From Syntrophobacteraceae bacterium (GTDB lineage: Bacteria > Desulfobacterota > Syntrophobacteria > Syntrophobacterales > Syntrophobacteraceae), in NCBI GenBank assembly GCA_013314815.1, contig JABUEY010000015.1:1-44174 (forward strand): a DNA stretch of 44,174 nt. The letters run 5' to 3'. This document shows positions 16,283-24,830 of the stretch, one piece after another. Numbering within the stretch: the first letter of the stretch is position 1; each line of letters opens with the position of its first letter. Below the pieces are notes generated by a model that worked only from the letters and a program-made list of their open reading frames with translations, did no database searches and was not told the origin of the DNA. The position numbers were made by a program, and so were the translations under genes.

Positions 16283-16891
16283 ATGACCATAAGCAATACC
16301 TGCATTTCCATTAAGGCGGCTCAACCCAAGCAGGGGGACCCCGGCAAGGACCTGTCACTGATTTATGAACTGAGTAATTTTCTTTCTGCATCGCTCAGCC
16401 TCAAGGAGATGCTTGACGGAGCCATCTGGAAGGTGCTCAAGCATTTTGACCTGGATGCGGGCCGGATCTATCTCATGCACGAAAGCGGCAGTTTTTTCAC
16501 TCTTGCCGCCGCTATCGGCACGGATCCTCAGGGCCTGGAAAAAATCAGGGCAAACGAAGGCTTCACGGGGAAGGCGGTCCGAACCCGGGCATTCATTGCC
16601 CAGCATGTTTCGGAACTGGAAGACCAGGACAGGATGTGCTTTCTTTCGCGGAAAGGATTCAATATCGTCATATGCATTCCCCTGATCGTGATGGATAAGA
16701 TCATCGGAGTGATGAATCTGGCTGTAAACAGGGAAATCGACCTCGATCAGCAGGAGATCGACCTTTTCATTGCCATCGCCAACCAGGTGGCTCTGGCAGC
16801 CAGCCATGCCATTCTTCAGGGGGAAGTGGAAAAGAAAGAGAAGACCATCGAGTTCTTCCGAAACCAATTTCAGAAGACCTTGAGGGCTTAG
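16283..16891 (+). CDS. Stand-alone GAF-domain protein
   Basis: A 202-residue protein consisting of one GAF domain with short flanks: an entry helix LIYELSNFLSASLSLKEML, the core (GRIYLMHESGSFFTLAAAIG, GFTGKAVRT, VICIPLIVMDKIIGVMNLAV), an exit helix (LFIAIANQVALAASHAI) and a C-terminal coiled-coil-like tail (EVEKKEKTIEFFRNQFQ). Such domains bind small ligands or sense redox state, but no effector domain is fused, so the output is unknown. GTG at 16268 is an alternative start with AAGGA rather close to it; I prefer the ATG without strong evidence. Confidence 0.82.
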   Translation: MTISNTCISIKAAQPKQGDPGKDLSLIYELSNFLSASLSLKEMLDGAIWKVLKHFDLDAGRIYLMHESGSFFTLAAAIGTDPQGLEKIRANEGFTGKAVRTRAFIAQHVSELEDQDRMCFLSRKGFNIVICIPLIVMDKIIGVMNLAVNREIDLDQQEIDLFIAIANQVALAASHAILQGEVEKKEKTIEFFRNQFQKTLRA

Positions 16892-16934: not shown

Positions 16935-18239
16935 TCAGGTGCTGAAGCGCAGATCTATGACTCCGTTTGCCGGTCCGAAATCCTTGAAAGACCCTTCCTC
17001 CTTCAGCCGGATCACCACGGGAACCCCGAGTTCCTGAGACAGGTCCGCCGCAAGGCTGCGGGAAAGCCTCTCCATCTCCTTGATTTCATCGGAATAGAAC
17101 CTTTCCTCCACCTTCAGCCACACCTCCAGGCAGTCCCTCAGGTCATGCCGGACGATGAGAAAGCGGCAGGTGGACGGGACAAAACCCAGAGCGCGTTCGA
17201 GAAGCAGGAGCACCTGGCCGTGGTGTATCTTCACACCCCGGATCACCAGGATATCGTCAATGCGCCGGGGAAACCATTCCATGCGCCTGAGTGTGCGTCC
17301 GCAGGAGCATCGGCCGGGGAGTATTCTCACCCGGTCTCCGGTGCGGAAACGGACGAGGGGAAACGCTCTTGTCGTCAAGGTCGTCAGTACGAGCTCCCCG
17401 GATTCCCCCTCTTCCACCTGTCTGCCCGATGCGGGATCGACCACCTCGGGCAGAAAATGATCCTCGCTGATATGCAGCCCCTGTCGCGCTTCACACTCGA
17501 AAGCCAGGGCGGGACCGGGAACCTCGCTCAAACCATAGTGCACCCAGGTTCTGGAATGGAGCTGTTCTTCGAGGCGGATCCTCGTTTCCGGATCCGCGTG
17601 TTCTCCCACGAGTACAAGCGTCTTCAGGGCCAGTATGTTCGGGTTGATGTCCGCTCGGAACAGGTTCTGGGCAAGCTGCTCGGCGGCCGAGGCGCTGGTG
17701 ACCAGAACCGAGGTCTTGTAGTCCTTGAGGATCATGAGCTGTTTTTCAGGGGGCAGCAGAGTCAGCGGGATCACGCCGGCCCCGACCAGTTCGGCTCCAT
17801 CCTTGTAATCTCGACCCCAGTTGGTGAGTCCGGGGTCGAGTTCGATCTGGAGGATGTCCGCCGGGGATACTCCCGCCGCCGTCAACGCCCTCGCCACCAT
17901 CTCGTGCCAGACCAGCAGGTCCTGTTTTGTATATCCACTCACCGTCGGCAGCAGACCGCTGCCGGGCGCCGAATGGATGCGCACCACGTCGCGCAGCGGG
18001 ACGGCAAAAAGCCCGTACGGGTAATGTTCGCTGAAGTGCTGCAGTTCGGTGAAGGGAACCCTCGAAAGATCGCCGAAGCTGCCTACCTGAGAGGGCTCGA
18101 CTTCATGCCGTTCAAAATTGTTCCTGTAAAAGGGAACATTCTTGTAAGCCCGGTTGAGCGTGCTCTGAAGGCGTTCGATCTGCTGCTGCTGGCGCTCGTC
18201 CAGATCGAGGCATTCTTCCCGTTCGTTCCAAATGGGCAT
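16935..18239 (-). CDS. PaaK-like protein, probably catalytically inactive
   Basis: A 434-residue homologue of phenylacetate-CoA ligase, colinear with the intact PaaK of this operon through most of its length (YKNVPFYRNNFE, LFAVPLRDVVRIHS, YGLSEVPGPA, FRTGDRV). Two catalytic sites are lost. The phosphate-binding loop SSGTTGKP of PaaK is here APGSGLLP (residues 91-98), removing the TGK core. The C-terminal catalytic lysine (GKAIRVID in PaaK) aligns with Pro423 in GPANGVID. The frame is intact and the gene begins three bases after livF, so it is probably expressed as a non-adenylating protein such as a binding or regulatory partner. Annotating it as an active ligase would be unsafe. Confidence 0.8.
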   Translation of the reverse strand: MPIWNEREECLDLDERQQQQIERLQSTLNRAYKNVPFYRNNFERHEVEPSQVGSFGDLSRVPFTELQHFSEHYPYGLFAVPLRDVVRIHSAPGSGLLPTVSGYTKQDLLVWHEMVARALTAAGVSPADILQIELDPGLTNWGRDYKDGAELVGAGVIPLTLLPPEKQLMILKDYKTSVLVTSASAAEQLAQNLFRADINPNILALKTLVLVGEHADPETRIRLEEQLHSRTWVHYGLSEVPGPALAFECEARQGLHISEDHFLPEVVDPASGRQVEEGESGELVLTTLTTRAFPLVRFRTGDRVRILPGRCSCGRTLRRMEWFPRRIDDILVIRGVKIHHGQVLLLLERALGFVPSTCRFLIVRHDLRDCLEVWLKVEERFYSDEIKEMERLSRSLAADLSQELGVPVVIRLKEEGSFKDFGPANGVIDLRFST

Positions 18240-18242
18240 ATC

Positions 18243-18986
18243 TCAGGCCCTCCCGTCATAGAATTCGCGATAGTCCTTCCCCAGGTAGGCTCGTTTGACA
18301 TCCTGATCGGCAAGCAGTTCGTCGGCCGGCCCATCCAGGACAATGTGTCCGTTTTCCAGCACATAGCCCCTATCCGCAACCTGAAGGGCGGCTCTTGCAT
18401 TCTGTTCCACCAGCAGGATCGTCATTCCGTCGTCTTTGAGCTGAACCAGGATATCCAGGATGAGTTTCACAAGAAAGGGGGCGAGTCCCATGGAAGGTTC
18501 GTCCAGGAGCAGAAGGCGGGGCCTGGCCATGAGTGCCCGGCCAATGGCAAGCATCTGCTGCTCCCCTCCGGACAGAGTCCCGGCGGGCTGCCTGGCTCTC
18601 TCCCTGAGCACCGGGAAGAGATCCAGCACGTGTTCGAGGTCCCCGTTTATGGCGGCCTGTTCGCGCCTGCGATACCTCAGGTAGGCTCCAAGCTTGAGGT
18701 TGTCAAGCACACTCATGGGCGGAAACAGCAGGCGTCCCTCAGGAACCAGGCTAATCCCCCGCCGAACGATTTCAGGAGGTCTCAAACCACTGAGTGGTTC
18801 CTTTTCGTACCGCATGTCCCCCTCCCAGCCCGGGAGCAGACCGCAGATGGTTTGCAGAAGGGTGCTCTTTCCCGCCCCGTTGGCTCCGATGAGCGCAACC
18901 ATCTCTCGAGGCTTCACCGACAGGCTGACCCCGTTGATGGCTCGTATGCGGCCGTAATAGCATTTTAGATTTCTTATGCGCAGCAT
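18243..18986 (-). CDS. livF: Branched-chain/aryl substrate ABC transporter ATPase LivF
   Basis: A 247-residue ABC ATPase of the LivF group: Walker A GANGAGKST, signature LSGGEQQMLAIGRALM, Walker B LLLLDEPSMGL, and H-loop region replaced by the LivF-type VEQNARAAL. It would power the LivHM permease on the cytoplasmic face together with LivG. The ATG at 18986 is preferred over TTG at 18995. The 18-bp gap after livG and the 3-bp gap before the PaaK-like gene mark one operon. Confidence 0.93.
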   Translation of the reverse strand: MLRIRNLKCYYGRIRAINGVSLSVKPREMVALIGANGAGKSTLLQTICGLLPGWEGDMRYEKEPLSGLRPPEIVRRGISLVPEGRLLFPPMSVLDNLKLGAYLRYRRREQAAINGDLEHVLDLFPVLRERARQPAGTLSGGEQQMLAIGRALMARPRLLLLDEPSMGLAPFLVKLILDILVQLKDDGMTILLVEQNARAALQVADRGYVLENGHIVLDGPADELLADQDVKRAYLGKDYREFYDGRA

Positions 18987-19004
18987 AGTCCGCAAAGCCC
19001 GTGG

Positions 19005-19796
19005 TTATTCTTTGCCCAGGTAGGCGGAGATCACCGCCTCGTTTGCCTGGATTTCCCGTGGAGTCCCCTCGGCCAGTTTCTTTCCCTGATGAAGCACCAG
19101 AATTCGGTCGGAAATCCCCATCGTGAGGCTCATGTCATGTTCCACGAGAACCAGGGTAACCCCCCTCTTTCTGATTTCTTCCAACAGCTCCCCGAGCCGA
19201 TGAGTCTCGACGGCGTTGAGACCTGAGGCAGGTTCGTCGAGCAGAAGCAGGTGAGGTCGGGTGGCCAGGGCACGAGCTATTTCCAGGAACCGCTGCCACC
19301 CGAACGGGAGGTCCGAACTGCGGTGATCCGCCACCCCATCCAGGCCCACGAACTCGAGCAATTCCATCGAATACTCCCGCATTTGCCGCTCTTCCCTCCG
19401 AACCCATGGCCCCCTGACGATCGCTCCGAGAAACCCGCACCGGGTGCGAACGTGCTGTCCCACCAGCACGTTTTCCAGAACGCTCATGTTTCCAAATAGT
19501 TCGACGTTCTGAAACGTGCGCGCTATACCGAGGGAGACGAGTTCATGAACCTTCCTGCCTCGAACTTCCTGCTGGGCGTAGACGACTCCCCCCTCATCCG
19601 GAGGATAGGCGCCCGTGATGATATTGAAAAGAGTCGTCTTTCCGGCTCCGTTCGGGCCGATCACCGCATGAATGGTCCCGGGGGCGACTTCGAACGAGAC
19701 TTCATGAAGTGCCTGAATACCCCCGAACGCTTTCGAAACGGATTCAACCCTTAGCAGTGGTGGAAGGGACCCCAGCTCTGCGTTTCGATCGCTCAT
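19005..19796 (-). CDS. livG: ABC transporter ATPase LivG
   Basis: A 263-residue ABC ATPase: Walker A GPNGAGKTT, Q-loop RTFQNVELF, signature LPFGWQRFLEIARALA (the LivG family commonly has non-Ser residues here), Walker B LLLLDEPASGL and H-loop VEHDM. A 15-residue N-terminal leader precedes the first strand. The start lies 53 bases inside the 3' end of livM, with only a weak RBS, suggesting translational coupling to livM. Confidence 0.93.
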   Translation of the reverse strand: MSDRNAELGSLPPLLRVESVSKAFGGIQALHEVSFEVAPGTIHAVIGPNGAGKTTLFNIITGAYPPDEGGVVYAQQEVRGRKVHELVSLGIARTFQNVELFGNMSVLENVLVGQHVRTRCGFLGAIVRGPWVRREERQMREYSMELLEFVGLDGVADHRSSDLPFGWQRFLEIARALATRPHLLLLDEPASGLNAVETHRLGELLEEIRKRGVTLVLVEHDMSLTMGISDRILVLHQGKKLAEGTPREIQANEAVISAYLGKE

Positions 19797-20697
19797 AAAT
19801 GTCCAGAAGACCCCGTGTCAAACCCTGAGGCAAAAAGATCATGATGACCATTAAGACCAATCCGTAGACCACCATCTCATAGTCGGAAAAGATGTGAAGC
19901 CATTCGGGCAGAAGAGTGATGAGGGTTGCCCCGAGCAGGGACCCCCAGATACTCGCCATGCCGCCGATCACCACCATGGTCACGATCCGGATCGATGTGA
20001 GAAAATCAAAGGTATTCGGACTGATGAAACTCACCAGGTGCGCGTACAGGAAACCGGCCAGCGCAGCCAGAAAAGCACTGAGCATGAACACGGATATCTT
20101 GAGCTGCGCCGTGTTGATGCCCATGGCGCATGCAGCCTGCTCACTGTCGTGAATAGCTCGAAGCGCTCTTCCGACCCTGGAGTTCACCAGGCGCTCACAC
20201 ACAATGAATCCGAGCACCACTGTCCCCCACACCACATAGAAGCAGGCTCTGCCCGAGGAAAGGGAAACGGGCCCGATCTCGAGAGGCGGAATCCCGACCA
20301 AGCCCGAATCTCCACCGGTGAACCCGCTCCACTCCCGAATCAGAACGTAGGTGATCATTCCAAACCCCAGCGTCCCCATGCCCAGGTAATAGCCTGAAAG
20401 TTTCAGCATCGGCAGGGCGACCAGAAAGGCGATGAGGACCGCCAGGAAGAGCGCGGCAGGAAGAGCGAGCCAGGGAGACCAGTTGAAGTGCGCGGTCAGG
20501 ATCGCCGTCGTATAGGCTCCGATTCCATAAAAGGCGGCATGACCCAGCGAAATCTGGCCGGCATATCCCATCAGCATGTTGAGACCCAAGGCAAGGAGGG
20601 TATGTATGCCGATGAAAGTCAACAGCTGAAAGTGGTAGGGACTGGAAATCCCTAAACCGGCCAGCAGGATCGCAACGGCAAAAAGGATATTTCGCAT
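19744..20697 (-). CDS. livM: ABC transporter permease LivM
   Basis: A 317-residue inner-membrane permease with about eight to ten hydrophobic segments, starting MRNILFAVAILLAGLG and including the LivM marks GLNMLMGYAGQISLGHAAF, SGYYLGMGTLGFGM and VVIGGMASIWGSLLGA. The ATG at 20697 follows AGGAG at about 9 bases; the longer open frame upstream is arginine-rich and unlike the family. It pairs with LivH to form the substrate path. Confidence 0.93.
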   Translation of the reverse strand: MRNILFAVAILLAGLGISSPYHFQLLTFIGIHTLLALGLNMLMGYAGQISLGHAAFYGIGAYTTAILTAHFNWSPWLALPAALFLAVLIAFLVALPMLKLSGYYLGMGTLGFGMITYVLIREWSGFTGGDSGLVGIPPLEIGPVSLSSGRACFYVVWGTVVLGFIVCERLVNSRVGRALRAIHDSEQAACAMGINTAQLKISVFMLSAFLAALAGFLYAHLVSFISPNTFDFLTSIRIVTMVVIGGMASIWGSLLGATLITLLPEWLHIFSDYEMVVYGLVLMVIMIFLPQGLTRGLLDIYERSKRRAGVPSTTAKG

Positions 20698-20798
20698 TGG
20701 CTCACACTCCTGGCTCCAACGGCATTCAAGGCAGACGGATGCCCCGCCATCGACCGGCGGCCGCCATCGGCCTGCGCCGACTGCAGAGTCTCCACGGA

Positions 20799-20817
20799 AG
20801 ATCCGTGCCGCGGATCT
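20799..20817 (-). other. Hairpin between livH and livM
   Basis: AGATCCG (20799-20805) and CGGATCT (20811-20817) form a perfect 7-bp stem with a 5-base loop in the 157-bp livH-livM gap. There is no T-tract, so a role in mRNA stability or processing is more likely than termination. Confidence 0.4.
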
Positions 20818-20854
20818 CGCGGCGCCGGAAGAACGGCTCGACACGGATTCCCGG

Positions 20855-21730
20855 TCAGAACCTGTGCACTGCCCTGGCCCCCAGGATGCCTGCAGGCCTC
20901 ACATAAAGAATGAGCAGGAGAAGCAGGAAGGCGATGCCATCCTTGAGGCTCGACGAAAAGAAGCCGACACCGAGGGCTTCAAGTATTCCCAACAGGAGGC
21001 CTCCCAGCACCGCCCCCCACGAACTTCCCAGGCCGCCGAGCATGGCGGCGCAGAAGCCCTTGAGGCCGAGCGTCATTCCCATATCGTAGCTGCTCATGGA
21101 AATGGGCGCGATAAGTATGCCCCCTACGGCTCCCATCCCCGCACTCATTGCAAAGGCCAGCAGAACCATCGTTTCGCTGGGAATCCCCAGAAGCCAGGCC
21201 GCCCTTTTGTTGATGGCGCAGGCCTGCATGGCCTTGCCCGTGAGGGTTCCCCTGGTGAAGAAGTGCAGAGCGGTGACGATGACGAGCACAATCCCGAGGA
21301 TCCACAGGCTTTGAGGCAGCAGGGTGGCTCCGGCAACCTCGAAGGGTTCATTGCGGGAAAAGGCGGGAGAGCTGTGGGCATCCTTCCCCCATCCCAGCAT
21401 TGCCACACCCCGGAGCAGAATCGACGCTCCAATGGTGATGATAATCAGGACGATGGGATGCGGCTTTCGAACACTTCGAATCGCGAGGCGCTCGAGGATA
21501 ATCCCCACGACGGAAACCCCTGCAATGGTCAGCAGGAACGCCAGGGGCAGGGAAAGTTCAAATCCGCTCCACAACGTGATCATGCTCAGGGCGCCGAGCA
21601 TGACGAATTCACCCTGTGCGAAATTGATCAGGCCCGTGGACTTGTAGAGCATCGTGAATCCCAGGGCGATTACGGCATAAATCGCCCCGTTGGTAACCCC
21701 GGAAAACAGATACTGGAGGAATTCCTGCAT
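20855..21730 (-). CDS. livH: ABC transporter permease LivH
   Basis: A 291-residue permease of the LivH family: N-terminal LFSGVTNGAIYAVIALGFTM, YKSTGLINFAQGEFVMLGA, central ITIGASILLRG, and C-terminal GLKGFCAAMLGGLGSSWGAV. Multiple membrane segments. The ATG at 21730 has AGGGG close upstream; the six extra residues from an earlier start look non-homologous. Partner of LivM. Confidence 0.93.
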   Translation of the reverse strand: MQEFLQYLFSGVTNGAIYAVIALGFTMLYKSTGLINFAQGEFVMLGALSMITLWSGFELSLPLAFLLTIAGVSVVGIILERLAIRSVRKPHPIVLIIITIGASILLRGVAMLGWGKDAHSSPAFSRNEPFEVAGATLLPQSLWILGIVLVIVTALHFFTRGTLTGKAMQACAINKRAAWLLGIPSETMVLLAFAMSAGMGAVGGILIAPISMSSYDMGMTLGLKGFCAAMLGGLGSSWGAVLGGLLLGILEALGVGFFSSSLKDGIAFLLLLLILYVRPAGILGARAVHRF

Positions 21731-21792
21731 AGACCCCTGCTTTCCCAAAGTTCAGAACAGCATTCCAAGATGCATGGAGACCACAGTTACAC

Positions 21793-21823
21793 AAAAAAGA
21801 ATTCCCACCCCTCTCAGGGAGTG
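21793..21823 (-). terminator. Possible partial terminator after livK
   Basis: On the minus strand CACTCC (21823-21818) can pair with GGGGTG (21811-21806) across a 6-base loop, followed seven bases later by T6 (21798-21793). One pair is a U-G wobble only on the minus transcript, which supports that orientation. It overlaps the livK stop codon and could lower expression of the downstream permease genes relative to the binding protein. The stem is short. Confidence 0.35.
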
Positions 21824-22977
21824 AGCATTTTCCACTTGCCGCCTTGAATCTCCACCATCACGAACGCATCAGCCCCCAGGCCGTTGTGATCTTCCGGCGA
21901 AAAATTGAACGTGCCTGTTACTCCCGGATGTCCCTTGATCTTCTCGAGAGCATCGCGGATCTTCTCCCTGTCTCCGTTCGACCCTCTCATCGCTTCAGCC
22001 AGAAGATACATGGCGTCATACGCATACCCGCCAAAGCCGGAAACCGGCATCTGAAAGCGCTTTTCGAACTGTTCGATGTAACCCTTCAACACGGACTTGC
22101 GAGGATCCGTCTCAGGCAACTGCTCGGCTACGAGAATCTTCCCCGTGGGAAGGAGTATCCCTTCGGCGGCATCACCGGCAAGTTCGATGAACTTGGGCGA
22201 GGCCACGCCGTGACTCTGATAAAGGGGAACCTTCAGATTCATCTGTTTGACATTCTTTGCCACCACTGCCGGACCGGGGTTCGTACCCCAACAGACGATG
22301 GCCTCGGGTTGAGCGGACCTGATCTTGGTGAGCTGGGCCGTCATGTCGGTATCCTTGGCTCCGAAGCCTTCGGCCTGCACCACTTCGATACCGTACTTGG
22401 ATGCCTGTGCAAGAAGCTGTTCCTTCCCGCTTTCCCCGAAGGCGTTGTCCACGGTAAGGATGCCGATCTTCTTGATTCCCTTCTTCTGGATATGTTCGTA
22501 AATGGTCGCCACTGCCAGCATGTCATTCTGTGCCGTCTTGAAAACCCAGGGCTTGACCGGCTCGGTTATCTTGATACCGGCGGCACAGCTGATCAGAGGG
22601 ATCTTCTCCTTTTCGGCCAGTGGAATAATGGCAAGTGTCGTGGGAGTGAGGCTCGGCCCGATAATGGCCAGGACTCCATCCTTGCTGATCAGCTTGTTGG
22701 CCGCAAGAACCGTCTTGGTAGGATCACCTTCCGTGTCGTAGATCACCGCTTCCAGGCGGCGGCCGTCGATGCCTCCCCTGGAGTTGATTTCATCGATGGC
22801 CAGTTCGAGACTCTTCTTTTCGGGATCGCCCAGGAATGAACTGGGCCCCGTGACAGCAAACACTCCCCCGATCCTGTAAACTTCACCGGCCCGTCCGAGA
22901 TTCGGTGAAACGCTGAGCAGCATGCCTACAGCCAGCGCCAGGACACAAACCAGAACAGATCTACCCTTGACACTCAT
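21814..22977 (-). CDS. livK: Periplasmic substrate-binding protein LivK
   Basis: A 387-residue type I periplasmic binding protein. Residues 1-30 form a Sec signal (MSVKGRSVLVCVLALAVGML, cleavage likely after GRAG). The mature part begins VYRIGGVFAVTGPSSFLGDP and continues with the LivK-type AIDEINSRGGIDGRRLEAVIYDTEGDP-like region (about residues 61-87) and PLISCAAGIKI. It captures the substrate for LivHMGF. Next to an aryl-CoA ligase the substrate may be an aryl acid or aromatic amino acid rather than leucine; that is inference. The start follows AAGGAG. Confidence 0.92.
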   Translation of the reverse strand: MSVKGRSVLVCVLALAVGMLLSVSPNLGRAGEVYRIGGVFAVTGPSSFLGDPEKKSLELAIDEINSRGGIDGRRLEAVIYDTEGDPTKTVLAANKLISKDGVLAIIGPSLTPTTLAIIPLAEKEKIPLISCAAGIKITEPVKPWVFKTAQNDMLAVATIYEHIQKKGIKKIGILTVDNAFGESGKEQLLAQASKYGIEVVQAEGFGAKDTDMTAQLTKIRSAQPEAIVCWGTNPGPAVVAKNVKQMNLKVPLYQSHGVASPKFIELAGDAAEGILLPTGKILVAEQLPETDPRKSVLKGYIEQFEKRFQMPVSGFGGYAYDAMYLLAEAMRGSNGDREKIRDALEKIKGHPGVTGTFNFSPEDHNGLGADAFVMVEIQGGKWKMLTP

Positions 22978-23073: not shown

Positions 23074-23505
23074 CTACATGGCATAAAGCTTCTCTCCCTC
23101 GATCACCTTCACTCCGTTTTCCTTGAGGACCTTCACGGCTTCGTCTAGGTTGTCGAAACGAAAGATGATCACCGCATTGCTGCCGCTTTGCTGCACAAAG
23201 GCATACATGTACTCGACATTGACGTTTGCCTTGTGCAGCACGCTCAGGATCCTGTGGAGTCCCCCCGGCTGGTCTTCAACCTCAACGGCGACCACATCGG
23301 TCTTGCCCACGGTAAAACCATGCCTTTTCAGCGCTTCCTTGGCCCTGTCGTTGTCGTTGACAATCAGTCGAAGAATGCCGAAATCCGACGTGTCCGCCAG
23401 GGAAAGCGCCCGGATGTTTACACCCTCCTCCGCCAGAATACGAGTCACCTCCGACAGCCGACCGGCCTTGTTCTCCAAAAAGACGGAAATCTGTTCCACT
23501 CTCAT
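23074..23505 (-). CDS. Tandem ACT-domain protein
   Basis: A 143-residue protein made of two ACT domains: residues about 3-68 ([20 protein letters not shown] with the GRL turn) and 71-140 ([20 protein letters not shown] with PGGL). ACT domains bind amino acids at their interface, typically for feedback. A stand-alone pair following paaK is a recurring arrangement in anaerobes; it may sense an aromatic amino acid and modulate the ligase, though no target is proven. Good RBS (AAGGAGG), 23 bp after paaK. Confidence 0.88.
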
Positions 23506-23528: not shown

Positions 23529-24830
23529 TTAGTACTTTCGGTTGTCTATGACCCGGATGGCCTTACCCTCACTTCTGGCGATACTCTTAGGTTCCACAAG
23601 CTTCACCTTCGCCGACACGCCGAGGTACTCCTTGATGTTCTTGGCGATCTTCTTCTCCAGATCCTGCAGTCTTCTCACTTCATCGGAAAAAGCCTGTTCT
23701 CCTATCTCCACCATCACCGTCAGAATGTCGAGGTTGTCCTCCCGGTCGACGACGAGCTGGTAATGAGGTTCAACACCTTCCGTTTCCATCAGGACACTCT
23801 CTATCTGAGACGGGAAAACATTGACTCCTCGTATGATGAGCATATCGTCGGTGCGACCGCTGATGCGATGCATGCGAACATGAGTTCTCCCACAGACGCA
23901 CGGTTCCGGATTGAGGGAACTGATATCGCGAGTGCGATAACGAAGAATGGGGAAGGCCTCCTTGGTGATGGAAGTGAATACCAGTTCCCCGCTGACCCCG
24001 TAAGGCAGCACCTCCTCCGTCTTCGGATCGATCACTTCGGGTATGAAATGATCCTCGAACACGTGCAGACCTTTCTTGGCTTCCAGGCATTCGATGGAAA
24101 CCCCTGGACCGATGACTTCGCTCAGCCCGTAGATATCGATGGCAGTGAGGTTGAGTTTGCGCTCGATCTCGGCCCGCATCTGTTCAGACCAGGGTTCCGC
24201 TCCGAAGATCCCTGACCTGAAACGAAAATCCTTGAAATCCAGCCCCATGTCCACGGCAACTTCAGCAAGGTGTAGAGCGTAGGAGGGAGTGCAGGTGAGA
24301 ATGGTTGGACCGAAGTCCTTCATGATCATGATCTGCCTCTTGGTGTTTCCACCGGAGATGGGAATAACGGAAGCACCCAGGCGTTCAGCCCCGTAGTGCA
24401 CTCCAAGCCCTCCCGTGAAAAGTCCATACCCGTAGGCATTGTGGATAATGTCCCCCCTCGATGCCCCCCCCGCGGAAAGTGCCCTGGCCATGAGTTCAGA
24501 CCACATGCCGATGTCCCTGGCCGTGTAACCCACAACGGTCGGCTTTCCCGTCGTTCCGGAAGACGCATGGATGCGCACGACATTGTCCATGGGAACCGCA
24601 AACATGCCGAATGGATAATTGTCCCGCAGGTCCTGCTTCGTGGTAAAGGGCAGTCGCCTGAGATCTTCGAGTGACCTGATGTCCGCCGGAGCAATCCCGG
24701 CTTCCTGCAGTTTCCTCCTGTAGAACGGTACAGTTGCGTACACGCGTTCCACCGTCGATTGAAGACGCCGCAACTGTATGGCTTCGAGAGCCTCGCGAGG
24801 CATGGTTTCATATTCGATGTTGTAAATCAT
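23529..24830 (-). CDS. paaK: Phenylacetate-CoA ligase
   Basis: A 433-residue member of the PaaK branch of the AMP-forming adenylate ligases. It makes an aryl-acetyl adenylate from ATP and then the CoA thioester. Residues 88-103 give the complete phosphate-binding loop [26 protein letters not shown] carries the adenine-site residues; RYRTRDI holds the ribose-binding Asp; Lys423 in GKAIRVID is the catalytic lysine. CVCGRTH is the usual PaaK cysteine pair. The exact acid (phenylacetate, indoleacetate or another aryl acid) cannot be read from sequence. It is the first large gene of the operon, with AGGAGG before the ATG, which overlaps the leader ORF stop. Confidence 0.9.

Follow-up and report, generated by a model that had tools for sequence, protein, structure and literature searches.

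The terminal gene of a PaaK-ACT-Liv operon in a Syntrophobacteraceae bacterium encodes a PaaK-like protein (P0002) which has very probably lost the capacity to form acyl-adenylates, and Lys-less proteins of this kind almost certainly fulfil a selected function. Judged by sequence, the clade of selected PaaK pseudo-ligases to which P0002 belongs is a variant of the known PaaK family. The window, i.e., the whole analyzed stretch of 44,174 nucleotides, corresponds to contig C18 of a draft genome of 4.06 Mb.

Gene context and catalytic motifs of P0002

The open reading frame of P0002 was confirmed as real and intact on the minus strand (Table 1), and it begins 3 bp after the end of livF at position 18243, as originally predicted. 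The gene order on this strand is PaaK, tandem ACT, livK, livH, livM, livG, livF and pseudo-PaaK. Between folC and the operon lies an ORF for a 170-aa protein (16355-16867, minus strand) without Pfam or NCBIfam match, a relative of which (36%) is encoded downstream of the operon in locus L040.

Table 1. Features of the operon and motifs of P0002 in the window.
Feature	Position	Strand	Remarks
Pseudo-PaaK (P0002), 434 aa	16935..18239	-	ATG start; terminal gene of operon
livF, ABC ATPase	18243..18995	-	Immediately upstream of pseudo-PaaK
livG, ABC ATPase	19005..19796	-	
livM, permease	19744..20844	-	
livH, permease	20855..21748	-	
livK-type substrate-binding protein	21814..22977	-	
Tandem ACT-domain protein (PF19571)	23074..23505	-	
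PaaK, operon head	23529..24830	-	SSGTTGKP and Gly-Lys423 intact
A3 phosphate loop position	17946..17969	-	Residues 91-98; APGSGLLP for SSGTTGKP
A4/acyl-pocket segment	17796..17837	-	Residues 135-148; rebuilt as DPGLTNWGRDYKDG; Trp and Arg invariant in same-locus set
A5 YGLSE, kept	17523..17537	-	Residues 235-239
A7 RFRTGD, kept	17334..17351	-	Residues 297-302; Asp302 invariant
A10 catalytic Lys position	16971..16973	-	Pro423; surrounding tail eroded in orthologues

Alignment with the operon-head PaaK (38% identity) bore out the motif assignments of the original prediction, namely loss of the phosphate loop, replacement of the catalytic Lys423 by proline, and retention of YGLSE and of the (F/Y)RT-D segment. 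Further losses that it had not listed were found: the A4 segment GYGLFTGG is replaced by DPGLTNWG (the assignment of GYGLFTGG to A4 is our own, and pocket residues are set by motif rather than by ligand contacts), the A8 hinge glycine is changed and the C-terminal tail is eroded. In place of A4, a new conserved motif, DPGLxNWGRDYKD, is present. In the same-locus set this replacement reads D/N-PGLANWGRDYKD, with Trp and Arg in 34/34 proteins, Tyr>Pro in 32/34 and Phe>Ala in 30/34, besides the changes Gly>Trp and Leu>Arg, whereas the same segment is near-invariant across the 34 head PaaKs.

SSGTTG, which P0002 lacks, is present in all 34 same-locus head PaaKs. The losses are common to orthologues at this operon position, and the pattern far exceeds chance: the A10 Gly-Lys is missing in 24/24 aligned orthologues of P0002. 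Among 201 PaaK-like proteins, a set containing some genomes in duplicate, under separate locus ids, Gly-Lys is kept in 77/77 operon-head PaaKs and absent from 88 of the 110 livF-adjacent copies; after thinning at about 80% identity (99 rows), 62 livF-adjacent copies were without it and nine with it. An apparent internal stop in the genome G004 was rejected as such: it marks the true end of the protein, which is reached at residue 419, short of the A10 position.

Mean identities by region were compared for the 34 loci that show both proteins. The pseudo-PaaKs and the head PaaKs differ most in the A10 tail (0.16 vs 0.80), followed by A8 (0.53 vs 0.96) and the phosphate loop (0.58 vs 0.93), and conservation within the pseudo-PaaK is lowest in the C-domain: the A8 hinge glycine is mostly lost, and many orthologues terminate before A10. 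The A8 Arg/Asp are kept. Values for A5 (0.86 vs 0.90), A7 (0.88 vs 1.00) and the YPYGLFAVP segment (0.89 vs 0.90) were high in both, the identity within the pseudo-PaaKs spanning 0.86-0.89 over A5, A7 and the segment YPYGLFAVPLRDIVRIH.

The AlphaFold model of P0002 (mean pLDDT 85.9, pTM 0.87) superimposes on PaaK2 with bound phenylacetyl adenylate (2y4o; Z 45.8, 427 residues, rmsd 2.3) and on BT_0428 (4r1l; Z 45.0). Pfam and NCBIfam both point to a PaaK relative, with every cut-off missed: P0002 reached 301 bits for TIGR02155 (cut-off 646.3, strict enough that the intact PaaK of the window itself scores only 625.3), 174.4 bits for the DVU_1553 family CoA ligase model NF045666 (cut-off 300), and values just below gathering for PF00501 (28.6 vs 29.9) and PF14535 (23.7 vs 25). 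In adenylate-forming enzymes A3 contacts the phosphates, A4 contributes to the acyl pocket, the A10 lysine serves adenylation catalysis, and A5, A7 and the A8 arginine position ATP and ribose (PMC8388817). Following these roles, the motif pattern suggests that P0002 keeps a plausible adenosine site, while the triphosphate grip, the catalytic lysine and the aryl pocket are gone.

Orthologues, selection and linkage to livF

A sample of 97 genomes, starting with the genus of the source bacterium and extending outwards, contained orthologues with intact frames whose identity with P0002 is 57-72% within the family and order and about 46-53% at the level of the class. They occupy the same slot, PaaK-ACT-livKHMGF-[pseudo-PaaK], across Syntrophobacterales, Desulfobacterales and relatives, and a GTDB contig scan added 80 loci of mostly identical arrangement, including those of the cultured Desulfacinum hydrothermale, Desulfamplus magnetovallimortis, Desulfogranum marinum, Desulfocicer vacuolatum and Desulfobacter vibrioformis. 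An assembly error was rejected, since identical losses with open frames recur in dozens of genomes. Pairwise dN/dS of the pseudo-PaaK was about 0.06-0.25, similar to livG and up to several-fold higher than for PaaK, the PaaK value being ignored for pairs lacking a head PaaK at the locus, where it merely repeats that of the pseudo-PaaK. These values denote purifying selection and, like the open frames of the orthologues, agree with the proposed selection of the gene within the operon. After the pseudo-ligase, some lineages carry a second ACT-type gene (L043:13038-13457, L105:11301) and others a livK-like gene (L047, L151, L164).

A first tree had grouped long branches. The second was calculated after excluding the trait columns and five outlying rows, including all flagged long ones. 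Here, the group with the Trp motif forms one clade with a support of 100. It is joined by pPaaK2, a second Lys-less livF-adjacent family, to give one larger and older Lys-less clade, and Lys loss requires three changes in total. Members of pPaaK2 follow livF and mostly lie beside iorAB; in this genome the family is found on contig C219, where the livF-adjacent gene (L055:7454-8776) lacks the A10 lysine and has iorAB in its cluster. A third, more divergent livF-adjacent copy in the same genome (L094:7448-8680, contig C199), also with iorAB in the cluster, has three additional residues inserted at the phosphate loop, and its contig ends before A10.

At all loci with a visible flank livF is the gene immediately upstream, with few exceptions at about 10 bp or less from the aligned end, and chance adjacency was rejected. 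In the same family and order no copy without livF was found, and in about 11 PaaK-ACT loci that lack liv, ACT is not followed by a copy. These loci were counted by hand, and the Fisher test on them takes no account of relatedness. In three genomes (G013, G019 and G021) PaaK-ACT-liv is retained but livF is not followed by a copy, which implies that the pseudo-PaaK is not needed for every such transporter. At their loci (L070, L065 and L066, respectively; one genus) unrelated genes follow livF in place of the pseudo-ligase.

Nitrospirota and Desulfobulbales-type genomes carry a ligase with Gly-Lys in the same slot, with iorAB at the operon head where visible; due to these intact ligases in other lineages, adjacency to livF may reflect only ancestral gene order. 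Considering visible operon heads, the Lys-keeping livF-adjacent copies were in iorAB operons in 12/12 cases and operons without iorAB had a Lys-less copy in 22/22, with three Lys-less copies in operons with iorAB, a correlation that ignores relatedness and reflects few independent events. An AMP-forming ligase of Bacteroides that is linked to IOR uses arylacetates as substrates and may function in the biosynthesis of aromatic amino acids (PMC13285125), which makes an operon for uptake and activation of aryl acids or aromatic amino acids plausible here as well.

Proposed role and rival explanations

The original prediction named a sensor, a chaperone or a partner subunit, roles that sequence does not separate; the strict adjacency to livF points to the transporter first. 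A dead ligase tied to livF in an uptake and activation operon would most simply be an accessory that serves the importer and responds to a ligand or nucleotide. The broader reading, a non-adenylating pseudo-ligase that probably binds a nucleotide or ligand and is accessory to either the Liv importer or PaaK, has a little less than an even chance of being correct, and the narrower one, an accessory that acts on the Liv importer or together with it, may be considered a tentative assignment. We propose that P0002, an ancient and selected pseudo-ligase that would be incapable of acyl-adenylate synthesis, may bind an adenosine nucleotide (AMP, or an adenylate- or CoA-type ligand) in the kept A5/A7 site and a further ligand in the rebuilt pocket, that the ligand state might control or couple the LivFG ATPases, by analogy with the ligand-binding regulatory domains carried on the ATPases of other ABC importers, and that the chemistry would be left to the operon-head PaaK. 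The most specific version, recruitment in the ancestor of the two livF-linked families as a dedicated cytoplasmic Liv sensor subunit gating uptake by an adenosine-containing metabolite plus a ligand of the rebuilt pocket, is rather unlikely. A catalytically impaired PaaK paralogue selected in the operon stands as predicted; binding of an aryl acid or aryl-CoA is not supported as stated, given the rebuilt aryl pocket segment and the poor conservation of the C-domain used in thioesterification.

The main rival is a role as partner subunit, in which P0002 would pair with the catalytic PaaK of the operon as a heterodimer and tune or stabilize it. The studied PaaK1 and PaaK2 are homodimers (PMC8388817, PMC4498308), the pseudo-PaaK retains its N-terminal region and the YPxGxFAVP segment, and an intact PaaK heads nearly every operon with a visible head. 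However, many relatives have the head PaaK without the pseudo-PaaK, the latter adjoins livF rather than paaK, and at one iorAB-liv-pseudo-ligase locus (L046/L138) a head PaaK was not visible, and we regard this role as having a minor share of the probability. Transfer of a PaaK-made acyl-adenylate to CoA by P0002 as a thioesterification-only ligase would fit the kept A5 and A7 and has a reported precedent in PtmA1/PtmA2, ANL enzymes that split the half-reactions (cited in PMC6594144). It is improbable, though, since the A8 hinge glycine is mostly lost, the C-domain is least conserved, many orthologues end before A10, and an A4 pocket unlike that of PaaK makes a shared adenylate unlikely.

The near-invariant, charged motif GLxNWGRDYKD might instead belong to an enzyme whose reaction or substrate has changed through the use of other residues, but neither a conserved lysine nor any other residue substitutes for A10 and the tail is eroded, so that such an enzyme appears quite improbable. 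Relaxation of the C-terminal domain would fit a functionless, decaying duplicate, but high N-domain identity, low dN/dS and the age of the clade argue against it, and a recent duplicate decaying by frameshifts is contradicted by shared losses and by orthologue frames that are open throughout. We consider decay extremely improbable.

Significance and comparison with known systems

Among the papers searched, none described a PaaK-ACT-liv operon or a PaaK without the lysine. Naming by homology would turn these proteins into phenylacetate-CoA ligases, with the consequence that aromatic-acid activation is overstated in pathway counts for sulfate reducers and syntrophs. Should P0002 act as a metabolite sensor of the importer, it would represent a new mode of ABC uptake control, and the adenylate-forming superfamily would contain a pseudoenzyme that is both old and widespread. 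Lineages with a catalytic copy in the same slot offer a natural before-and-after comparison.

With PaaK (TIGR02155; PDB 2Y4O, 2Y27, 4R1L), P0002 shares the full-length fold, A5, A7, the N-terminal microdomain and an operon that also encodes PaaK; unlike PaaK it lacks the phosphate loop, the A10 lysine and the A8 hinge glycine, and its A4 aryl pocket is rebuilt. PtmA2 is reported to be a non-adenylating acyl-CoA ligase that retains thioesterification (Wang 2018, cited in PMC6594144 and PMC8363725). Like this ANL protein, P0002 is predicted not to adenylate and is encoded alongside an adenylating partner, but P0002 shows erosion of A8 and of the C-domain, and its gene is linked to an ABC importer. 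The DVU_1553 family AMP-dependent CoA ligase (NF045666) is likewise PaaK-like, but its 331-position model matches only the N-terminal part of P0002, and it is a different family. ABC importers such as MetNI possess regulatory domains through which ligand binding controls the ATPase (trans-inhibition). The likeness of P0002 to these domains would be one of analogy only, with no relation in sequence or fold claimed, and unlike them P0002 is a separate protein.
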